From positions 1,119,425 through 1,183,424 of the forward strand of contig BCKL01000002.1 of the NCBI GenBank assembly GCA_001600635.1: a stretch of DNA of 64,000 nucleotides, read 5' to 3'. A program made the position numbers and the translations under genes. The stretch is from Leucosporidium creatinivorum. Its lineage: Eukaryota; Basidiomycota; Microbotryomycetes; Leucosporidiales; Leucosporidiaceae. Positions 35,824 through 50,612 of this stretch are shown piece after piece. The notes under the pieces are model-generated. The model saw nothing but the letters and a program-made list of their open reading frames with translations, made no database searches and had not been told where the DNA came from. Each line of letters starts with the position of its first letter. The first letter of the stretch is position 1.

Positions 35824-38800
35824 ATGGCCTCCTCTCGGGGTACAGAGGGAGGGGCCAATCACCCTCCCTTAGCACCTTTACCACCACCTCTACCCCCTCC
35901 CTTCTCCCGTCTCTCTGATGAACCTCAACGAGGCGGACCAGAGGACTTTGACATGCTCTCGGGCTGGGCTCGCTCCCTCTCCGTTTCACCACGATTATTC
36001 CCTACCACCTACGGCAACGAATCATCCTCCCTCCTCCTCCCTTCTACCGGCTTGGGAGGCCTCGACTCGCCCAACTTTGGTTCGACCAGCTTGGGAGGAG
36101 CAGGCAGCTATCGTGGCTTGTCGGGCTCGCCTGTACTGGCGCCGGTGAGGAGGGAGAGTCAGTTGACGGTGGGGACGGGGTTGAGCCCCGAGTTGGGGCC
36201 TACGCGAGTCGGGTCGAGGAATAATAGCTCGGGAGGAGGAGCAAGCGGCGGCGGAGGAGGGCTGATGATGGCTTCGGGTGTAGGAGTAGGAGGGGATTAC
36301 TCGTACGCCTCCTTCAGCTCGCAGTACCAGGATTCACCGCCCTCGGAATCCCTGCACAATCACCACCACTCGCCGCATGAAGCCGTGCCGGCGCCCCCTC
36401 CTCCTCCTTCCCGACCGGCTTCGCTGCACTCGCTCTCGCAGTCGCCAGCTCTCCCATCCCATACCACCCACTCCTTCTCCAACCTAGACCACCTCGCTTC
36501 CCTTTCTCCTCAACCGCTCCCTCCTCCTCTCTCGGCTCCAACCACCAGCGCACCGCCTCTCATCCCCGCTCCCACGCCCATCCTCTCCCACCCACATCCC
36601 CCGCCACCGCTTCCCGTTCCTCCTCCACCAGCTCCAGCAACAACAGCAGAGGAGGAGGAGGAAGACCCGCGCATCCGCGCCTACGCCAAGCTCGAGTTCC
36701 CGACCTTTGACATTTACATCCAAAAGCTGAGCGTCATCATCGGGAGGAGGCCCGCTGCTGCTGTACTTGCTGCTGCGGCGAACGTGCAGCAGGCGAAGAG
36801 GAGCCCGAGTGCGACGAGTCTGGGAGGGAGGGGGTCGAGTAATCCTCCCCTCGGCGGAGGGGGAGCAGGAGAGAGTGCGATGCCGTTGGGGTTAGGGGAT
36901 GCGAGAGGAGAGGGAGTCAAGTTGGAGGATTTCGTCATGGGGATGGAGCTGGATGAGCCGAAGGAGGTCGTCGTCGAGCAGGAGAAAGAGAAGGAGATCA
37001 AGGCCGAGCCCGCCGAGTCGGCCGCCGTGGTTCTTCCTCCCCTCCCTCAGTCGTCGGCGATGGTCCCTCAGCTGTCTTTGACGCTCAGTAGCCCCAAGGG
37101 AACGACCACCGCCCCCTCCGCCGCGACCGCGACGGCCGACGAACCCGTCACCGTCGACGCGTTCGCCGAATTCCTCAAATCCTCGCCTCCTCCTCCTCCC
37201 GCCGCCCCAGCAGCAGCCGAATCCGACGTTCCCCCTCTCGCTCTCCCGCCCTCCACCACCTCCGCTCCTGCGCCTGCGCCCGCGCCTTCCCCCGCTCCCG
37301 CCCCAGCAGCAGCACCACCACCAGGCTTTCTCACCGACATTGACCTAGGACCCATCCGCGCCGTCAGTCGCCAGCACGCGAGGTTGTACTTTGATTATGA
37401 GTTGGGCGGGTGGGCCATTGAGGTGCTGGGGAGGAATGGGGTGGTCGTGGATGGGAAGTGGAAGGCCAAGGGCGAGAGGGAGGGGATGGGGGCTCGGTGA
37501 GTTTCGAGCGAGCGTTTTGATGAGTTTTGGGGGAGGTGGGAAGGGCGGAGGGAGAGAAGGGGAGGATGGGGCGCTGACCTTTCCCGCTCTCTCTCTTCTC
37601 CCTCGCTCCTCACCGCCGACCGAGCAGAACCAAGATCCAAATCGCCGAACGCGTCTTCTTCTTCGTCCTCCCGACCATCGACCCCCCATCAACGCTCCAC
37701 AACCCTCTCGCCTCGACCTCCACTCTCCCCGCCGCCGCCGCTCTGTCAGAGGACTCGGACTCTGAACTCTCGGAGCTCGATTCCGCCGACTTGCTCTCCT
37801 CTCCCTCTTCCTCCGCCGGCGGACCAGCTCTCCACCAGCACCAGCACCAGCATCAGCACCACTCGCCTCACCTCCGACTCGCCCGCTCCGTCTCGCGCAA
37901 CCCCTTGCTCGAAGGCGATGGCGATTCGTCCTCTCTGTCCGAGTTGAGCTCTTCGGAAGTCGAGCTCTCCCCGCTGCAAGAGCCTTTGGATGAGGATGGA
38001 CTGCCGAGGGTTCCAGGAGGGTATAGTCTGGCGGGAGGGATGGTCGCGGGCAAGAGGTTGGAAATGATGCAGGCGGTGAGGAGTGGGGGGAAGGGCATGG
38101 GGATGGGAGCTGGCGGGGGAGGAGGGAAAGGCAAGGCGCAGCAGAGGAGAGGTGGAGGGAAGGGTAAGGGCAAGATGTTGCCGCCCAAGAGGCCGAGGAG
38201 GGATAGTTGGGCGTATAGCTCCGAGGAGGAGGAGGGGGAGGAGGAGGCGAGCATGGGATATGGATATGGGGGTTACGGAGGGCGATATAACGAGTATGAT
38301 CACGAGCTGGAGGAGGACGACGAGGAGGACGACGAGGGGGATATCGACATGCCCCTCAGCCCACCGAAACGGAACGTAGACCTCAAGCGCGCGGTCGAGT
38401 CCAAGCGGCCCAATTTTGCTCAGTCGCTCGCGATGAAGGCGCCGCCTCCTGGTGGAGGAAAGAGCGCAGGACAGATGGCCAACAAGAGGAGACGGCACGA
38501 GATCAACAAGATTGTCATCAAGCGCAAGAACTCGACGCCGCCTCCGCCTCTCCCCGCTGGCGCGCCCGGTTCCGGATCGGTCCCAGCTCGAGCGTCCAAG
38601 GCTCCTCTCAAGGCGCCGAGGGATCAACCGGTCGCTACCAAGATGCCGAAACGACAGCGCGATCCCTTCGAGTCGGCTCCGAGCCTCGGCGTCGCAGCAG
38701 CCGCTTTCGCCGATCCTTCCCTCCTTCCTCCTCTTCCTTCCGCTGGAGGTCCCTCCTCCTCCTCCATCTCTACCGCTCCCACTTCTCTCCTCCCCGTCGA

Positions 38801-40901
38801 CGGATCCACCTCGGCTCTCTCCCCCGTCAACCTCCCGCCTCTCCCCCTTCCCTCCACCGCCGCTCCTTCGCTTTCGCCCAACGGAGAAGCGTCTTCCACC
38901 GTCGCTGGCTCTTCGACTACCGCAGGGAAGGCACCAGCAGCCAAGCGACCTCGAGGTCGACCTCCCAAGAACGGCGTCTGCGCCAAACGACCGAGCAAGA
39001 AGACCCCCGGCGGCGCTGGCTCCTCGGCAGCAGACTCTCCCACCGGCGGCGAGGCCGCTACCGCTCTCCCTATCGACCCCCTCCTCGACGGTCCTCAAGG
39101 CGCCTCGGCGCTCCCTCCCCCGCCCCCTCCTCTCCTCGTCTATGGCCCTCACACCGAAGCGGGCGTACCCCCCGTCGCTCCTCGCGCACCGCCCTACACT
39201 CCCGCTCCGATGCCGCCTGGCCCTGCGCCCACTCGCGCATCGCAGGATAATCCCCATGGAAGGCCGCCGTACACTTACGCGAGCCTGATCGCTCAGGCGT
39301 GCATGGGCAGTCCCGAGAGCAAGTTGACGTTGTCGGAGATTTACGATTGGATCAATGAGAGGTGGCCGTACTTTAGGGATCATCAGCAGGGGTGGCAGGT
39401 GAGTTTTGGGATGCGCTCGCTCGGTCACTCGCTCGGCGCAGTCGAGGATGGTAGCTGACTTTTCGCTCTCGCCTCGCAGAACTCGGTGCGCCACAACCTC
39501 ACCCCCGCTCGAGGCTTCCTCAAAATCGACCGACAGGAAGGCGAGAAGGGCAAGGGAGCCTTCTGGACGCTCGACCCCGCGCAACGAGACGGCTTCGACG
39601 GTTTCACCTTTCGCAAGAAGGCGATCCCCAAGTCCGAGACGCCTGCTGCTGGTGCTGCGCCGTCGCCCTCCGCTACGTCGTCGATTTCGGCGCCCAAGGT
39701 CAACGGCTCGGCTTCAGCTTCGACGTCGACCAAGCCCTCCACCTCGACCTCGAAGCCAGCTACGACTCCCGCTCCTCCCGGCGCGACCAAGGTTACCGCT
39801 CCCAAGCCCGCCGCCGCTGCAGCAGCCCCTCCCGCCGGCAACGCCAAGGCCACTACTCCCGCCGCGACTCCTTCTCCCTCCCTTTCGGCTCCCCTTCCCG
39901 TCGTCATCGGCGAGATTCCCGACTCTTACGTCCGCCCTCCCCCTCCCGCCAACAACGGCGCCCCTCCCGACGAGCTTACCGCCGCCCTTCTCAAGGACCC
40001 TCCCATTGTCCTGCACGAGGGCAAGCTCATCCTCAACCCTTCCATCTTCGCCCACCTCCCCAAAGAGCAGTTGGACCACCTGCAGGTCTTGCCCGCTAGT
40101 CAGGCGCTGCAGATCTTGCAGGCGTACGTGGTGCAGCATTTCAAGGAGAAGATGAGGAAGATGGCGAGTGAGAAGGCGGATAAGGCGGCGAGGGAGGCGG
40201 CGGAGAAGAGGGTCAAGGAGGGCACGGCGGGACAGGGCGTCGCGGGACCGCCGCCTCAGGTCAAGTCGGTTGTCAATGGCAGTGGAGCGGCTAGTGCGAG
40301 TGGAGGAGCAGCAGCAGCGCCGAAGAAGGAGACGACGGGAGGAGTCGAACGGGCGTTGACGACCAACGGGACGCCAAAACCTCTCTCCGCGACATCCTCC
40401 TCGACTGCTGCGCCCAAGTCGGCGACCGCGTCGCCCTCTCTCGGCGCAAAACCAGCTCCTCCCGCCTCGGCGAGCAAACCGAGTCCTTCTCTTCCCGCCA
40501 AACCTCCTCCCGTCTACACCAAACCCGCACCACCACCACCTCCTCCTCCGCCTCTCCCTCGACCGACCCCTCCACCTCCATCCGGTCCTCGCTCTTCGCT
40601 CCCTCCTTCCGGCCACTCCGGTCGACCTACGCCCCCTCCTCCTCCCCCACCTCTCCCACACAAGCCCATGACTCGCTCCGGCCCACCACTCAACGCGCCT
40701 GCCGGTCCTCGCAACTCTGGCCCTCCGCCTGGAACGCCGACGGGCCCGAAGGCTCAGCGAGGAGGAGGGGGGAGGGTGACGCGGCAGCAGGTCAATTCGA
40801 CGCCCGTTGGAGGAGGAGCAGGAGGGCACAAGAGGAAGTTGAGTGAGGTTGGTGGGGGAGCGGGTCCGAGTAAGATGGCCAAGGTGGGGGAGAAGAAGTG
40901 A
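35824..40901 (+). CDS. FHL1: FHA-forkhead transcription factor, Fhl1-like
   Basis: About 1,620 residues in three exons (35824-37496, 37628-39398, 39480-40901). The FHA start AYAKLEFPTFDIYIQKLSVI followed by IGRR and the FHA end VSRQHARLYFDYELGGWAIE followed by VLGRNGVVVDGKW match Fhl1, but roughly 200 residues of low-complexity sequence separate them. The forkhead domain is at about 1099-1180: RPPYTYASLIAQACMGSPES, TLSEIYDWINERWPYFRDHQ, QNSVRHNLTPARGFLKIDRQ and GKGAFWTLDP. An intron splits it just before the NSVRHNL recognition helix. A later helical block (LHEGKLILNPSIFAHLPKEQ, LQILQAYVVQHFKEK) also fits Fhl1 of filamentous fungi. In yeast Fhl1 regulates ribosomal-protein genes through Ifh1/Crf1 binding to the FHA. 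The linkers hold acidic, RGRPP (AT-hook-like) and poly-Pro stretches. Confidence 0.9.
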
Positions 40902-42082
40902 GGTCGTGAGCAGGGAGGGACGAGGATTCGCTTGGTTACGGGTTTCTCTCGACTCTTGGGACGGGTGCTTTATGTTGTAGTCTTGCCTTTTGATCGGTAC
41001 ATAGGTGTTTCCGCTCGCTTGACCTTGCTGCACGAGAGCTGGAGAGCACTGTGGACAGCGAACGACCGCTCTCGTCTCGACTTCTTCGCCGAACCGCCGA
41101 ATCGCGAGCGCCAAGAAGTACGAAGGAAGATCCCTGCCGGTCCCGCACTCTTGCATTTGTCGTCCCCTACCCTAAAGCTAGAGAAGTGTGTAGCTCGACC
41201 CGCGCCGACGCTCTCGCTCCTCAACAGGAAGGCAGGAGCGAAGGAGCGGGCCAGCTTTGCCGCGCTCCAGCGTGGGACACGCTGCACGTCAGCACAGGAC
41301 GATCGAGCTGGGAATAAAAGCGACAATAGGCCTTTCATCGCCATGATGAAAAGAGAAAGAACAGCCGAATGCAGGAGGAGGAGGATGTCGAGGGAACCTT
41401 GGCGGGGCCTGGCTGAGCGTCAACTTCGGCGGAGACCTTTTGACAGGGTGTCGCTCAGTCAACGCCACGCTACACAATATGACCCCTCCAAGAGCCAGCC
41501 GCGAGCAACGTGGTGGTCGCTCACTCGACAGAAAAGTCAAGGAAGGCAGTGTGAATCGGCCGAGCCAGCCTTCGCAACCCGCCATCTTCGCACTTCCTCT
41601 GCTCGAGAGCTCGCGGAGCGGTAAAGGGCACGAGTATGGTCGAGTAGCTCTGTGTGTGTGCTCAGCTAGCGGGAAGCAGCCTGGATGGCTCTGCAGCGTC
41701 CTGCGAAGGCGCGACACACTCGCGCTTCGAGACCAGCCCTGAGGCGATCTTGCCCTTCTATGATCTGTCTCGCCTGTTTGGGCGTGAATTGCGGGTGCTT
41801 GTTTCAGCGCTCAAAGATGCCTTGTTCGTCCTCCTCTTCGTCTCACAAAAGCAAGGGCATCAGGCGGCTACATCCCTCCCCCCCGCCGAGACTGAAAGCC
41901 TCGCGGCTGTTTCTTCTCGTTTCTCCCTCCTCCACCTCTTCCCTAACTCACCTCATACACCTTCCCGTGCGAGCCGTCAACCCTTGCACGCCCAGGCTGG
42001 TCCACGAGCACGTCCGAGCCCACCGAGTCGATTCCCGCTGTCTCTCCTCGAATTACCAGCCAACAAGCTTCAGCAGCCAGCC
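40902..42082. promoter_or_regulatory. Long intergenic region (1.18 kb)
   Basis: The longest gene-free stretch in the window. Open frames on both strands show no splice signals, no domain and a composition like neighbouring non-coding DNA. The last 200 bp, rich in CT and CA words, are likely the leader of the gene at 42083. I see no RNA gene. Confidence 0.4.
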
Positions 42083-43494
42083 ATGGCTTTCCGGTCGGGA
42101 GCAGACGCTTCTTGCTCTTCCCCTACTCCTGCTGCCTACCTCCCAGCCTCCCAGCGACAGATCCGGAAGCCTTCGCCGAAGCCTGACAAGGTGCGTCTCG
42201 CTCGCGGCGTCTTGCGCTTCTCGAGCAAAGCTGACCGTCCTCTCATACAACGCAGTCCAGCAACAGTTTCTTTGGCAGACGTCTGAGCATCTTCAGCGGC
42301 AAGAGCGACTCGCCAACCCCATCCCGCCCCATTTCAATCTCGTCGCCCATCCCAGACTCCTTCGTCGACTACTCGACCGGACCCTCGCCAGCCTCGACCA
42401 GTCCCTCCTCGCGCACGAGCTCAGTCGCTCCTTCTTCCCCTCCCCTCTACGGACGTCCGTCCCGCTCTTACTCCTCCACTTCGCTCGCCTCCCACGCCGA
42501 GACTCGGTTCTCATCGCCGGCCAGCGGCATGTTCGCCTCTCAACAGCCGAAAAGGGTTCGACGCAAGCCTGTTCCCAGCTACATTGACCTCAGTGGCTCG
42601 GTGGACCAGCTCGCGGTGGACATCGTTGGGCTAAGAAGGCTGCAAGTCGACCACTCGGCGGAGCAGGCGACGAAGGAGCACAGGCGGACCTCGTCGACCG
42701 GGACGGAGGGCATGTGGGCTAGTGGCAGGGACTCGTTTATGTGCAGGGAGCTCGAGTCTCCCTTGCAAGAGTCGGAGGAGGACGCTGAAGGTCGGGAGGA
42801 GATGCGCGACGGCCTATGGACGACCTCGTCGGACCTCACCTCGTCAGCTACGGGCGAGTCTCAAAGCTCCAGTCGATCACGCCAGTCATCTTTCAGCTCC
42901 CTCGTATCCCTGCGCGCCAGCCCCTGCCTCTCCTCCGCCCCCTTCCGCCCTCCACGCTCTCCTCGGCGCTCCCACTCTCGCAACAGCAGCTCGGTCTCCT
43001 ACCAAAGCATCCAAATCCCTCCATCTCCCGCCCTCAGCTCTCCTCGTCAAGCCTGGCGCAAGACCTCATGGGAGCTTCCCGAGCTCGAGCTGCCCTTCAT
43101 GCCCACCCTCTTCCCCACCGAAGGCGAGGAGCCTTACGCCTACATCGCCGAGCCGACTCCCCTCGCAACCGACATCCGTAACCCCTTCGACGCACTATCC
43201 TCTCCTCCCGCGTCTACCTCTTCATCCTCTTCGTCGACCTCCAGCCACGAAAGCTCGTCCACCATGCCCACCGAGCTCAGCGACGACGAGACCTCGCCGA
43301 AGGAGTCGGCCCCCTCGCCTCCGACACCCTCTCCCTTCCGCCGACCTTCTCTCTTCCGCGTCATGAGCGAGGGAAAGAGCTACTTCATCGAGGCGCCGAT
43401 GACGAGCCCGAGGAGTAGCATCTACTCGTTTAAGAGTGCCAAGGAGGAGGCGCCAAACGACTCGGCGATCCTGGAGATCAAGCTGTTGAAGTAG
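42083..43494 (+). CDS. Unrecognised Ser-rich protein
   Basis: Two exons: 42083-42189 (MAFRSGADASCSSPTPAAYL ... KPDK) and, after a 67-nt-class intron with GCTGAC branch, an exon beginning SSNSFFGRRLSIFSGKSDSP and ending AILEIKLLK at 43494. No family recognised. The protein is about 450 residues, dominated by Ser and Pro, with scattered basic patches (KRVRRKPVPSYIDL) and short hydrophobic/aromatic motifs (SWELPELELPFMPTLF, EEPYAYIAEPTPLATDIRNP, SPFRRPSLFRVMSEGKSYFI) of the kind conserved as docking sites in disordered regulators. No membrane helix. Likely a phosphorylated regulator, by composition only. It is convergent with the dioxygenase gene. Confidence 0.65.
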
Positions 43495-43726
43495 TCGGCA
43501 CGGATTATATTGTCCATACGGTTATTTCCTGATATTCCTCATATATGGCGTTTCCCATCCTGCCCCACCTCAGTTCATAGCAGGCGTAATATCATTCTCG
43601 GCTCGCATCTATGTAACTCTCGCCGAGACCGCCGAAATCCGCGAAAAGATAAGCGAGACTTGCAGAAGAGTGCATAGATGGCAACAACAGATGACACAGA
43701 TGGGGACGTATATGCTATGGGACGAC

Positions 43727-45817
43727 TCAGAGGATGGGGAAGCGCTCCCACGCCTTGCTCCACTTCGCCTTGTTCTCGCGATACACTCGCTTCTTCTCCG
43801 CCTCACCTATCGTGGTGAGAGGGACGTTAGCTTCTGCGTCCCTACAGCCAGACGACGGTGGCTCAATCGCGAAGAGGAGCACTCACCGAAATGGCTGAGG
43901 CTACGACCGCCGAGCTCGCTCCACAAGAAGAGAGTTGCGCCGCACCAGAAGGCGAGGGAGTTACGAGTGTCGTCCTCGTGTATTGAGGTATTCCAATGCG
44001 TGAAGATGGCCGAGGGGAAGAGCGCGACATCTCCTGCGGCGACTTCGATGGCGAGTCGAGCTTCTTGCAGGATGAGCCAGCCTGACCGAGTCGAGTCGAA
44101 GTCGCTGAAGGGGACGATGCCTGATGGGAAGAGGTCAGCGACGAGACTTAGGCGATCCAGGTGAGAAACGCACCGCAGAGACCTGGACCGAGGTTGTGGC
44201 TATCGCGATGAGGGAGCGTGGCGACCTTTCCGCCTGTGTTGAGGCAGAAGGAGCAGAAGGCCCCGAAGAGGAAGTAGAGACCGCGCGCGAGGAGCATGGT
44301 GGCCAGCGAGCGGTGGTACTCGTAGACGCCGGGGTAATGAGTTTGGAGACTGCGAAGAGAGACGGGAGGCGAGGTCAGCATCAAGCGGCCAAGACGGCAA
44401 GGCAAGCAAGTGCACAACTCACGTCCTTGATACATGCCCCCGAATGCGACCAAAAGCCTTGCCGCGCATGAGCTGAAGCCACCTGGTAGGCGAAGCCGTA
44501 AACGCCGAAGAATAAACGGGCTCGACAGCGCCCGTTTCTCGGTGCACTCCGATCTGCCTAATCTTGTGTGATCCACGCGAGCCGTCGGTCTTCATAGGTG
44601 GGGCAGTGAAGGCCGAGACTTCTTTAGCGAGCTCCTCGGCGACGCCCTTCATCCCTTTGGGGCATTCCACGCGCGTTGCGAAGGCTCGCCGAGAAGCATC
44701 GACGAATGTGGTCGACTTTCCTGCGACGCCTGAGCGATGAGCGAAGGTGAAGCCGGCGAGTTGAGGGTGGTTCTTGATGAGCTGAGCCTCGACCGAAGCT
44801 CGCCGCTGCTGTTCGACGTTCAGCGTCGAAGTGGAGGAGGGCGAGGTTTTGAGATGACGAGCCTCGACCGAAGTGCGTCGCTGTTGCTCAATGTTTGGAG
44901 AGGAGGCGGGCGGAGGTGAGGGCAAGGGAGAGGGAGAGGGCGGGACGGTCGAAGGGAAGATTGGGCATGCTGGTGCTGGAAAGGGCTTTGGTGGTGTGGC
45001 GCTGGGTCGTATGGGTGTCGAGTAGAAGGAGGAGGATGGGATAGATTGGGTGATAGATAAGTCGGATGGTATGAAAGGCGTGCGAGCGGGAGTTTGAGGT
45101 TGAGGGGGGCTCGGCGATGGGGACGGCGAAGGGGTCGAATGAGCTGCAGCCTTCGAGCTGGCTCGAGGCTTCTCCTTCTCCAGCTTGAGCTCGACTCCTG
45201 CGTATCCAGCGCGAGGATGCACCGGGAGGCTGGCCACCGCCACACTGAACGGAGCGCTGGCGAGCACCGACGACTCGCTCCTGGCCTTCTTGGCCACCTC
45301 TTGCAAGCGCGCTTCCTTCTTGTCACGCCGACGCTTGAGCTTGTGGCTTCTGAAGGTCGGAGGAGGGAATGACGAGAACTCTGAGAGCCTGTACTTGTCG
45401 TCGGGGTCGAAGGAGAGGCAGGGGAGGGTTGTTTCCATCGCCGAGGGCGCCGAAGAAGGGCATAAGAGTAGCTCGGCAGCCATGAGAGTCGATAAATCGT
45501 CATCTTTGATGTTGTCCGAGAGCTGTGCGAGATCACATTCGACCTGGAGCGTTGTCACGGCCTGCGAACGACGCGTGAATTCAAGTCAGCTCGGTCGAGG
45601 CGCAGAGCAGCTATAAGATGACACTCACCTCCTCTTTGACAGTAGGAATGGCAGTAGGAGGTGAAGCTGGTGCTTCGGGGTCCGGCTTCGGCTTGACGTC
45701 GTCCAGATGTGACGGCGAGGTGATGCAGGCAGGGAGCGAAGGCGAAAGGTCGGCGGGAGGTGTACAGCGGCAGTGCTTCGGGCGGCGGCTGCATCCAGCA
45801 CAGCGACGTTTCTGCAT
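43727..45817 (-). CDS. TET/JBP-like 2-oxoglutarate- and Fe(II)-dependent dioxygenase
   Basis: About 600 residues in five exons. The N-terminus opens with a Cys/His cluster (MQKRRCAGCSRRPKHCRC), then a long Ser/Pro-rich region. The C-terminal third is a double-stranded beta-helix dioxygenase: LPHRDSHNLGPGLCGIVPFS (HxD iron ligands), SGWLILQEARLAIEVAAGDV, ALFPSAIFTHWNTSIHEDDT (distal His) and R of DDTRNSLAFW (2-oxoglutarate binding). The order, the GLCG-like turn, the late HxNT and the R-NS block fit the TET/JBP family expanded in basidiomycetes, whose studied members oxidise 5-methylcytosine or thymine in DNA; fungal copies are often tied to KDZ transposons. No transposon lies here. It ends AKWSKAWERFPIL at 43727. 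Alternative: a related 2OG-Fe dioxygenase acting on protein or RNA. Family by motif reading. Confidence 0.7.
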
Positions 45818-45989
45818 GATGATAGAGCAAGTCCGGAGCGCGACCTAGGAGCGAAAGAGACGCGCCGAGCTCTCCGACGCAATTCGAGTAGTAAGAAGAG
45901 GCGGCAAGCTTTCGAAGCTTGACTTCCTGGTTCTTACATCACTTGCTCGCTTTCTCGTCGCTTCTCGCATTTCAGCTCGTCGTACAGCC
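45818..45989. promoter_or_regulatory. Short divergent promoter, dioxygenase / Bye1-like
   Basis: Only 172 bp separate the start codons of the dioxygenase (left) and the Bye1-like gene (right), so the two almost certainly share promoter sequence. Confidence 0.55.
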
Positions 45990-48900
45990 ATGAGTGGCAG
46001 GATCCGGAACCCGTCTGTACGAGCCTTGGAGGCTCAGCGCGATGCCTACGCCGTCGAAGAGCTTGCCCCGCCTCAACAGCAGCGCTCCTCTGCCCGCAAG
46101 CAGAAGGCAGCAGCAGCGCCCGCTCCTGCTCGCAGGGGCAACGCCGTCATCAGGGGACTAGATACTGCAGCAGACGAGGATGCAGCCATGTCGGCGGCCG
46201 CCTCGCAGGAGGACCCGGGCGAGGGAGAGAAGGACCCTGATTTCACGCTGTGTACGTTCTCTCCGACTCATCTGTAGGTCTCTAGAGCTCGCGCGCTGAC
46301 CTCTGACCATCCTACAGACTGTATCTGCCTCGGCTTCGACACCGGAGAGCAGCCCATGATCCAATGCGAGCACTGCAACAACTGGTAAGCTCGCTCGCTT
46401 GCGCAAGCTGCCCCGGAGTCATCAATGGCTCGACTCCGGGGGCTCAGAGCTGTATGCTAACCTGTTGCCTATCTCACAGGTTCCACTTCCGCTGTATCGG
46501 ACTCGACGAAGAGCGCGCTACTCTGATTGAGGCCTACTGCTGCGACATCTGCACGGAAATGGGCTTGGGAACGACTCGGAGTAAGTTCAATCTCACTACC
46601 AGGGCATCTTCTCTTTCGCTGGCGGGCTGTTGGCGTCTACCTACACCCCCAGGAGCCTCCCTCGAACGACGTCCTCCCCTTCGCTCGGCGGATAGCTCTC
46701 GGGCAACGAGCTTCGCTCGCGCTCAGAGGGCGTGCACCTTCGCCCTCGATGCTCTTCTCGACGTTGACCAGTGTAGACGTGCTAGCTGGTCATCAAGCTG
46801 GTGTTCTCCGAAACCCGTCGTCTCGCCAGGCTCGGCCGAGGACCTCTTCGCACTCGCTGCCCGCCCCTCCTCACAACTCTGCCCTCCCTCCGTACGAAGA
46901 GCGAACGCGTTCGATTCATCAGCCAGGCTCACAGTCTTAGACGGACATCTCGGGTCAAACCGAGAGATGAAGCGCGAGCTCGCAGGTCAGAGGGCCAGGA
47001 GCGACGGCTGGGCACTTTGCAGGCGAGAAGGAGATCCTGAAGGGGTCTTGAGATTCGATGAACCGCTGGACCGTTTCTGCTACGCAAGCTCTCTTACGGA
47101 GGCGCTTCGGCGGATCCAACCCCCGAGACCTTCGGGCCTCGCCCGCTTCCGCCTCGACCACCGACGGCAGCAGGCGGTGGAGGGTAACAGACGGAGCCCG
47201 GGTGTATATGATGTGCGTGAGGAGTGGGCCGCGCGACGATTTGCATTGCCTTGCCGGCAGGGCATCGTTGCAGAGGCTTCGCTCGCTTTGCGTCTTGCTC
47301 GCACTTCGCAGGCTGGCTCTCAAGAGTGACTTCCACCTGCAGAACGAGAGCTGATCTCCCTTTCTCTCTTTACTCACCCACAGCCATCAACGACGCGCCG
47401 CTGCAACCAGTCGATTATGACGATGGACAAGCTTCTTCTCCCTCCCTCACCAGCACCTTTGACGAGGACGAGGAGGAACCACCTACAGCCGAGGACGACG
47501 ACGAGGAGTACAGCGCCGAAGCTGGACCTTCGTCTGGCGGCGTCAAGCGGGCAAAGAAGGCGCCAGGAGGCACCAAACAGCGCACTCGGCGCAAGGTTGC
47601 GAACGCCGAGGGCGACGAGGACTACGTCGGAGAAGCGGAAGTCCCTGCTACCAGCGCCAGCCCTCGCAGCAAGACCGCTACACCCCAAGTAAGCACTCTC
47701 GTCGGTTGTAGAAGCCGCAGGGAGCTCCAACTGACCCTTCCCAAACTTCGCAGCCGAAGTCATCCACCTCCAAGAAGGGCGCTCGTCGCAACTCATTCGT
47801 CGACGACAAGGACGACGCTCTCGCACCCAAAACCAAGGGACGAGGGGCTCGCAAGCCTCCCCCGACGGCTCCTCTCCCGCCCATCGACCTCGTCAATGCT
47901 CCCTCGGCGCCTCCTTCCGACAAGACTCGCACTCACTGCGTCAAGCAGCTCACCACCATCTTCAAGTCGGTATTTTCGGCCAACGAGGGAGACGGAAACT
48001 CGGTCGGAGTCGAAGTGCGCGCCGCTGCCTTCGCCGAAAGCGTGGAGAGCGAGCTCTTCGAGGGCTTTGCCGAGCTCGACCCAAAGAACGTTCGCTCGCC
48101 GAGGACGAAATACGTGGCCAAGTTCCGCTCGCTCCACTTCAACCTCAAGACCAACGCCGTCTTCCGCTCCCGCATCTCCTCCAACGACCTCAACCCCGCC
48201 CAAATCGTCAACATGTCCAACGAGGACCTCCTCACGCCCGAACTCAAGGCGATGGCCGACAGTGTGCGCGCCGCGAGTCTCAAGCACTCGGTCAAGGAGG
48301 TCGCTACCGCTCCCACCGCCAAGCGCACTCACAAGGGCGAGGAGGAGATCGACAACCACGCCATCGTCGCAGCGCAAGCCGAGGAGAAGGCGCTCGCCGA
48401 ACGCGACGAGCGCGAGAGGCGTCAACGCTCCGAGTCGGCCTCGCAGCGCAGCCCTCAGCCTTCACCTCGAGTCGATGCCTCTCCCGCCTTCTTCGGCTCC
48501 CCTCCTGCCACCCCCAACGACTTTGCCGCCTCGCCATCCTCCACCACTCCCTTCGCCAGCTCCGCCGCTCCTCGACAGCGTTCCTCGTTACCTCACTCCT
48601 CTGTCACCATCTCGGCCGAGGACCTAGGACTCGACACCGAGGATGAGAAGCCCATCATCGCTCCTACGCCTCGGCGCAAGGTTTCCACTTCGGCTCACCC
48701 ATTCGACTCGGCTTCGCCTGCCAGCAAAGCGGAGGACTCGCCTGCGCCCGGGGAGGACGGCGACATGGCACCACCACCGCTTCCCGCCCGCGCTAGGAGC
48801 AGCTTCGACATGTCGTCCGTCTGGGGCAACATCAAGGCGTCGCCGCAACTCGAATCGACCGAGCAGATGAAGTCGATGGACGCTACCGAGGATGAGGAGG

Positions 48901-50612
48901 CCAGCGGACCCGAGCCTTTCGCGGTCTCGTCCTCGAGGTCGGGCGACGACGACGATTTCGAGGCCTCGCTTCTTCGCGGAGACGGCGCCGTCAAGGAGAA
49001 GGCGCCGAGGTCGACCACCCCTCCTCCGCCGTCTGCATCCGCCCAGCCTCTCACCGACCTCCCATCAGTATGGAGCGGCGACCTCATCGTACCAGACGAG
49101 GGAGGTTTCCCTGCTACCTGCGTGCAAGTCGGTGGGCGACCTTTCGGGACCGCCGCCGAGGTGTGGGCGAGGTTGCTCCCTCGCTCCTTCGCGATGGACG
49201 GTCGCATGCCCACCAAGACGGCGCACAAGTATCTCCTCGAGTGTTCTTTCGCATCCTCCAGGGAGCTCGTCGTCGTTGCCGTCCTGCCCGATCTCAGTGG
49301 ACCGACCAACCTCTCGCCTCAGAAGCCGACCAAGGAGAGCTGCCTCGCCAAGCACCAGCACATCTTCGACTTCTACGTACAGAAGGAGCGCATCGGGGTC
49401 ATTGCGCCGACGGGAGAGCTCAAGAAGGTCGTCAAGGACATGTATTTCCTCCCCCTCCGCAAGTGGGATCCTCTGCCCGAGTGGGCCGAGCTCTTGGACG
49501 ACCACAAGATCCCCGAGCCGAGCGGTCGCGATGGAGATGTCCTTCTTTGTGTGCTCGTCACTCAGAAGGGAGCGATTCCTAGCGTCAAGCCTCCTTCGCC
49601 TTCCCCAGCGCCAATCGCGGCCCCTCCTTCGTCGTCCTTGGTCTCGGCGCCTTCGACGGCGGTATCCATGGTGCAGGACGCCCTCCCCGTCTCGAGCGCC
49701 CTTCCCGCTCCTCCTACCCAGCCTCAATTGCAGCCCCAGGCGCAGGCGCCTCCTCCTTTCGCTCGTCCTCCCGGCGCCTCACCTTACCAGCCGACCGCAG
49801 GCTATGGCCGTCCACCCCACTCCGCTTCGCCCTACCCCGCTAGAGGCCAGTCGCCTTACGGCAATCCTCCTTCCAACTACTACGAGCCGCCTCACTACCC
49901 CCAAGGCGCTCCTCCCGCGCCTTACGGTCAGCCCTCGGCGTACCCTCAGCACACTCCTCACTACCCTCAGCATTCACCGCCTTACGACCAACGCTCGCCT
50001 TCCTACAACAACCAGCAATCTCCTCCCTACGGAGGTCAACACTCCCCTCCCTACGGCCAACGCTCTCCTCCTTACAACCCGTCCGCGCCCAGCTCGGCGG
50101 CTCCCCCTCCCGTCGACGCTTCGGCCATCCTCGCGGGCATCGACACCTCGGCGCTCAGCTCGCTGCTCGCCAACCCCAGTCTTCTTCAGGCGGCTGTAGC
50201 GCAGAGCCAAGCTCCCTCGAGCTACGGCGTGCAGTCCCAAGCGCCGCAAAGCCAAGGGCCGCCGATGGGACGTCAGCAGTGGGGAGGCGGGGGAGGGAAC
50301 TACGATGGGTACGGCGCAGGACGACCGCATGATGGAGGATATGGCTATGGAGGAGGAGCAGGAGGACCACAGCCCCCTGCTGGCGGAGGAGGTGGAGGCT
50401 ACGTTCATCCGAGCCGAGCGGCGCTGTTGGATCCCTCGGCGGGCGGCCCTCCTCCCAGCGAGATGGGCTACGGTGAGGTTTACGACCGAGGTGGATATGG
50501 AGGACCTCAAGGTGGATACGATGGTGGACGAGGAGGCTATCAGCAAGGCTATGGCTCGAATGGCGCAGGAGGATGGAACGGCCGAGGGAGGGGCAGGCGT
50601 GGAGCTTACTGA
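45990..50612 (+). CDS. BYE1: Bye1-like transcription regulator (PHD, TFIIS central, SPOC)
   Basis: About 1,195 residues. PHD finger at about 88-140: YCICLGFDTGEQPMIQCEHC, WFHFRCIGLDEERATLIEAY, CCDICTEMG, with the full C4HC3 ligand set. The TFIIS middle domain, at about 300-425, holds RTHCVKQLTTIFKSVFSANE, YVAKFRSLHFNLKTNAVFRS and RISSNDLNPAQIVNMSNEDL. SPOC, at about 683-855, holds VWSGDLIVPDEGGFPATCVQ and TAHKYLLECSFASSRELVVV. The tail is Pro/Tyr/Gln- and Gly-rich (repeats like SPPYGQRSPPY) and ends GRGRGRRGAY. Bye1 binds H3K4me3 with its PHD and RNA polymerase II with its TFIIS-like domain; that role is known for yeast and inferred here. An 803-nt intron (46581-47383) follows the PHD exons. 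Confidence 0.92.
46581..47383 (+). other. Unusually long intron (803 nt) in the Bye1-like gene
   Basis: Donor GTAAGT after GGAACGACTCGGA and acceptor CCCACAG before CCATCAACGACGC. The PHD finger ends just before it and the acidic linker starts just after, so the join is sound. Open frames inside on both strands show no domain. It may hold a regulatory or small RNA element, but nothing definite is seen. Confidence 0.65.

Follow-up and report, generated by a model that had tools for sequence, protein, structure and literature searches.

TET/JBP proteins are already well known in fungi, where their genes are described as mostly numerous and linked to transposons (PMC12730594, PMC8889193); many DNA transposons of Pucciniomycetes, Agaricomycetes and Pezizomycetes carry them, and the types PU, AG and PE of transposon-encoded proteins have been described (Kojima 2025, PMC12730594). 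This abundance and the link to transposons make it difficult to test a cellular role of the fungal TETs. Expansions of the TET/JBP genes are reportedly also the subject of a PNAS paper from 2014. The structures used for comparison here are those of CcTet from Coprinopsis cinerea (PDB 7vpn, 7w5p, 8jkk) and NgTet1 from Naegleria (NgTet; PDB 4lt5, 5cg8, 5cg9). According to PMC11040006, the residue located five positions after the His of the HxD motif (H+5) is N1387 in TET2, D234 in NgTet and Gly331 in CcTet; N1387 bonds the amino group of cytosine, and the Gly of CcTet admits 6mA. The same source describes the role of the 2-oxoglutarate (2OG)-binding Arg, and of two positions that follow it: R+6 stacks on the base, and R+8, which is His in TET2 and NgTet and Arg in CcTet, bonds the base by contacting its O2. 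Regarding the enzymes that write methylation, PMC12210899 reports DNMT5 from every Pucciniomycotina genome that it studied and DNMT1 from almost every one. Among the open-licence papers listed in literature searches there was no work on stand-alone TETs of related yeasts.

In this work we analyzed a gene of Leucosporidium creatinivorum located in a 64,000-nucleotide stretch of DNA (the window), which a first-pass annotation had considered a TET/JBP-like dioxygenase placed outside any transposon. From these analyses the gene is most likely a divergent, single-copy TET relative that lies among ordinary genes, and it adds a divergent stand-alone member to those already described in fungi.

The interval 43727-45817 corresponds exactly to a minus-strand gene of five exons, with 605 codons plus the stop codon; the introns of 67, 73, 53 and 80 bp all have GT..AG ends, and the exon structure predicted from these splice sites fits the interval (Table 1). 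The ATG of the divergent neighbour is at 45990, which leaves 172 bp to the start codon of the TET-like gene. The neighbour matches the Pfam families PHD (E 9e-9), TFIIS_M (E 3.1e-20) and SPOC (E 1.5e-13), a set that is Bye1/PHF3-like following the names used in PMC4100922 and PMC8526623. The gap and the neighbour are as given in the first-pass annotation, which proposed a common promoter for the two genes; shared regulation is a further step that the gap does not demonstrate.

Table 1. Features of the TET-like gene and of the gap to its divergent neighbour, in window positions. Counts of viral relatives come from a 160-protein alignment fitted to the profile.
Feature	Position	Strand	Basis
172-bp gap separating divergent start codons	45818..45989	.	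sequence
Exon 1: start codon and N-terminal Cys/His cluster	45629..45817	-	spliced model
Cys/His cluster C6-x2-C9-x5-H15-C16-x-C18, possible metal knuckle	45764..45802	-	sequence
Exon 2: linker rich in Pro/Ser, basic stretch, beginning of the catalytic domain	44423..45561	-	spliced model
Basic stretch at residues 136-157 (candidate nuclear localisation signal)	45280..45345	-	by eye
TET/JBP-like oxygenase core, residues 439-561, crosses introns 2 and 3	43942..44436	-	TET profile alignment
Exon 3: HxD motif	44174..44349	-	spliced model
N480, invariant position of the viral TET set	44238..44240	-	160/160
H490-R-D492, predicted Fe(II) ligands	44202..44210	-	H and D in 160/160 viral relatives
N495 (H+5), site of the cytosine-N4 contact in TETs	44193..44195	-	80 N and 80 D of 160
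Exon 4: distal His and 2OG Arg	43887..44120	-	spliced model
H543, predicted third Fe(II) ligand	43996..43998	-	160/160 viral relatives
R554, predicted 2-oxoglutarate-binding Arg	43963..43965	-	R in 160/160 viral relatives
W560 (R+6), base-stacking aromatic position	43945..43947	-	Tyr in 160/160 viral relatives
Exon 5: C-terminal part and stop codon	43727..43806	-	spliced model

The placement of the gene outside any transposon was supported. At the DNA level the locus is single-copy in the genome (in a search that omits simple repeats), the neighbour domains are ordinary cellular ones where scanned, and none of the five pairs of inverted repeats found in 41000-49500 brackets the gene; the repeats found in this region are all of 34 nt or less. 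Neither a transposase nor repeated termini, as expected for a KDZ-TET transposon, were found on the two sides of the gene, and a KDZ search of the genome gave no match in a run in which no control matched either, so that it had no positive control. As tested, the gene therefore differs from the PU, AG and PE types, with which it has in common the family and the fungal setting; judging by the published description it also has HxD in place of the HxE of the PE type (PMC12730594).

Direct searches with the protein left the family question open. The full-length protein had no 2OG match in Pfam; with the domain alone, Tet_JBP (PF12851) was at the top (E 0.079; 0.036 when trimmed), with 2OG-FeII_Oxy_5 at 0.053 and 2OG-FeII_Oxy_3 at 0.092. 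The Tet_JBP score of 12.6-13.8 bits stays far under the gathering cut-off of 34.9, which is an annotation threshold and not a biochemical trait. None of nine controls (one reversal and eight shuffles) matched a 2OG family, and one shuffle matched an unrelated model with E 0.18. Pfam is a blunt test here, because four of the seven phage TET-like proteins described below are also under the cut-off and a 78-aa piece of NgTet was not matched by the Tet_JBP model at E <= 1. An NCBIfam scan of the protein matched nothing. Against the PDB sequences the best match of the domain was NgTet, with 28% identity over 76 aa and an E of 0.98 that is not significant alone; CcTet was not listed at E <= 10.

A second, clearer TET/JBP gene of the genome is found on contig C6 (contig-C6 paralog; C6:317973-318206, L001 and L009), with Asp at H+5; it matches Tet_JBP with E 3.9e-5 in the genome search and E 1.8e-6 in the Pfam scan, and its closest phage among the matches listed is Caulobacter phage Cr30 (E 6e-7). 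A Zn2Cys6-like frame was noticed by eye downstream of it. The gene under study was absent from the matches when the genome was searched with the Tet_JBP family, with a Cr30-type viral TET, or with the contig-C6 paralog; the reverse search, with the domain of our gene, reached the contig-C6 paralog with E 0.0023, and a two-sequence profile of both proteins matched NgTet in the PDB with E 0.037. A third, more divergent and weaker TET-like candidate is present at C2:972752-972922 (L187:796-1812), with an HKD motif and Asp at H+5 (TET profile, E 0.0015; Pfam, E 0.044; search with the contig-C6 paralog, E 0.0077). The genome was searched exon by exon and these gene counts are lower bounds.

The contig-C6 paralog led to phage proteins, and two among 14 listed records are annotated as 'Tet-like J-binding protein'. 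Seven of the phage proteins were retained; each of them is matched by the Tet_JBP model of Pfam (E 8.4e-21 to 0.0027) and shares the catalytic signature of our gene. A profile of these seven was run with the filters off against 2,304 entries, made up of the gene, 1,303 window fragments and 1,000 shuffles. The gene was ranked first (E 1.1e-4), the sole other entry below 0.7 was its own exon frame, and the next independent entry had E 0.75. In contrast with the alignments that included phage TETs, which did recover viral relatives, viral scans with the gene's domain, the two-paralog alignment or the contig-C6 domain alone recovered none. From two scans with alignments that included phage TETs, the best 80 of 160 relatives and the best 80 of 96 relatives were taken; two that lacked the motif were dropped, and clustering of the rest at 70% identity left 36 sequences. 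These and the seven phage proteins formed a 43-sequence profile, in which Cr30 is present two times, once from the phage and once from an IMG/VR record. With the frames of L009, L013 and L015 added to the search set, the contig-C6 paralog was first (E 1.4e-12), the gene second (E 8.9e-6) and its exon frame third (E 0.0012); the next independent entry had E 2.1, and the best of the 1,000 shuffles E 3.5. The viral set is a fair proxy for TETs: when the gene was combined with 32 viral relatives into one profile, this matched TET2, NgTet and CcTet among the PDB sequences (E 1.5e-6 to 0.0014), and the next non-TET had E 0.56. A profile search had been proposed by the first-pass annotation as a check: TET profiles rank the gene high, and Pfam places Tet_JBP first at a sub-threshold score that is near those of the generic 2OG families. 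A tblastn search of the domain against phages gave three records (E 2, 5 and 8), none of which was counted as evidence; one match, over a 668-aa open frame, is in another reading frame, and the other two fall under a helicase and under a 'putative 2OG-Fe(II) oxygenase'.

The HxD motif, the distal His and the 2OG Arg reported earlier are present in the claimed order, as H490-R-D492, H543 and R554, and this triad and Arg are also those of CcTet. The Asn at H+5 is likewise as expected for TET/JBP, CcTet being the exception at this position; NgTet, too, has HxD with a carboxylate or amide at H+5. In the viral relatives the Gly and the Glu of the motif GxLxxxE are kept in 159/160 each and T546 in 156/160, and a MAFFT alignment of the seven phage proteins, the contig-C6 paralog and the gene has 10 invariant columns that include the motif Asn, His, Asp, Gly, Leu, Glu, His and Thr. 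The base pocket departs from the known enzymes in two positions. R+6, where Phe or Tyr was expected, has Trp, which is aromatic too. R+8, expected to be His or Arg, is Gly; this position varies across TET/JBP, being Arg in 80, Leu in 45 and Lys in 35 of the 160 viral relatives. At H+5 and R+8, respectively, the gene thus has Asn and Gly, as compared with Gly and Arg in CcTet and with Asp and His in NgTet.

Structure prediction was another check that had been proposed. A single-sequence AlphaFold model (pLDDT 37) was discarded. With 33 sequences, i.e. the gene and 32 of the 36 viral relatives (four were left out), the mean pLDDT was 60.3 and the pTM 0.59; 100 of 279 residues had pLDDT 70-90 and 94 were below 50, and five of 28 ten-residue blocks reached 80-85. 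In a Foldseek search of the PDB with this moderate model, derived from a TET alignment, ranks 1-15 were all chains of NgTet or CcTet, NgTet being the best match by fold as it was by sequence. At E <= 0.001 TETs were 16 of 35 matches, the rest being AlkB homologs, prolyl hydroxylases, a gamma-carboxylase and two others. The full-length superposition on NgTet was poor (TM 0.45, rmsd 9.7 over 249 columns), and the cores of CcTet superposed with about 3 A over about 90 columns. A double-stranded beta-helix nearest to those of TETs is the fold expected of the family; TETs are at the top here, with a model of moderate confidence. This model is itself derived from TETs and biased to them, which makes the fold search no independent test, and the match is a support and not a proof. 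Together, the phage and viral TET profiles, the family-typical residues and the fold search back the membership in TET/JBP originally proposed, at a score that does not reach the Pfam cut-off.

A candidate writer of the substrate was found at a locus on contig C7 (L008:3100-7800), where a match to DNA_methylase (25.2 bits) and one to SNF2 (27.2 bits) share a strand, with about 3 kb between them, and cytosine-methyltransferase motifs were seen by eye across adjoining exons. We take this arrangement to be the layout of DNMT5. It is the one place with DNA_methylase found in the genome. No match to the uracil/thymine-DNA glycosylase family was obtained in an exon-by-exon genome search, which is a weak one, and a glycosylase step after oxidation is for this reason unsupported. 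Within the window the CpG observed/expected ratio is 0.97, i.e. CpG is not depleted. With few TET-like genes found and a DNMT5-like writer, this genome would lend itself to asking, by clean gene deletions, if the TETs of fungi serve the host by erasing methylation or by marking it.

We consider it probable that the gene encodes a nuclear, host-encoded TET/JBP Fe(II)/2-oxoglutarate dioxygenase that oxidizes 5mC in DNA; a nuclear site is suggested by the basic stretch of exon 2. In such an enzyme iron would be bound by H490, D492 and H543, and 2-oxoglutarate by R554; the base would be flipped from the DNA into the pocket, where N495 would touch the amino group of 5-methylcytosine and W560 would be stacked on the ring, and the methyl group would be converted to 5hmC, possibly with further oxidation. 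The substrate would be the 5mC maintained by the DNMT5-like enzyme, and the gene product may tune or erase these marks. 5mC is the likely substrate because of the DNMT5-like locus, and because of the Asn at H+5 the protein looks like a 5mC enzyme rather than a 6mA enzyme. The departures at R+6 and R+8 from TETs of known activity, together with the fact that CcTet accepts 6mA besides 5mC (PMC11040006), would suit an enzyme of the same fold that acts on another base or polymer, such as m5C in RNA, thymine as in JBP, or 6mA. This is unlikely, given that H+5 is Asn as in TET2, that the use of 6mA by CcTet rests on its Gly (PMC11040006), and that the genome has the DNMT5-like locus. A fixed cellular function in oxidizing the bases of DNA or RNA, as suggested by the first-pass annotation, would be plausible.

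That the protein could be a generic 2OG-Fe(II) hydroxylase of proteins or small molecules, from another family and merely TET-like, is brought up by the nearness of 2OG-FeII_Oxy_5 and Oxy_3 to Tet_JBP in Pfam. We consider this very improbable: the family-typical positions are retained, the TETs precede AlkB and the prolyl hydroxylases in the fold search (with its TET-biased model), and in the 43-sequence search the 2OG-FeII_Oxy_3 gene of this same genome (L013) and a phage 2OG oxygenase (L015) were outside the best 13 entries, which reach E 16. A transposon-borne past, with the gene now domesticated or decaying, would be compatible with a host-encoded 5mC dioxygenase and is conceivable because DNA transposons carry TET/JBP genes in several fungal classes (PMC12730594). 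It is also quite unlikely, since the frame, with its four introns, and the catalytic residues are intact, the locus is single-copy among cellular neighbours, and KDZ was unmatched in the search that had no positive control; an ancient domestication may still have taken place.

The Cys/His-rich N-terminus noted before is indeed there, with C6, C9, H15, C16 and C18 inside residues 1-18. Of 20,000 shuffles of the protein, 380 had four Cys within 13 residues at some place, and 22 had four Cys among their first 20 residues; by this measure the cluster is uncommon, though not overwhelmingly so. Pfam had no match at the cluster, and when the genome was searched with the N-terminal 211 aa, no gene besides this one was matched below E 0.2. 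A zinc knuckle at C6-C18 is possible. A more tentative and rather doubtful idea is that the gene represents a fixed, non-transposon TET lineage, with a pocket altered by Trp and Gly and an N-terminal Cys/His knuckle, that may recognize and oxidize a base different from plain 5mC, or act at chosen sites, in normal fungal gene control.

Regarding the phage relatives, phrog_24024 matches the gene (E 0.0011) and the contig-C6 paralog (E 6.5e-7); the TET nature of this family is not demonstrated by NgTet and CcTet, because their short pieces failed to match. In two of the seven phage loci a glycosyltransferase is downstream of the TET-like gene, which suggests DNA hypermodification. The proteins annotated as 'SNF2 DNA repair protein' in phages Cr30 (L017:1712-3040) and DLP_6 (L019:1694-3040) matched only Tet_JBP in Pfam at E <= 0.01, and this annotation looks wrong. 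The SNF2 label may have been taken from JBP2-like proteins.

The window had no matches in Rfam or in a tRNA scan. In the linker of exon 2 (44770-44900, minus strand) two like stretches, NIEQQRRTSVEARHLK and NVEQQRRASVEAQLIK, suggest by eye an internal duplication. Elsewhere in the window, at 37578-40898 on the plus strand, two adjoining frames match the two halves of Forkhead and probably form one spliced forkhead gene.
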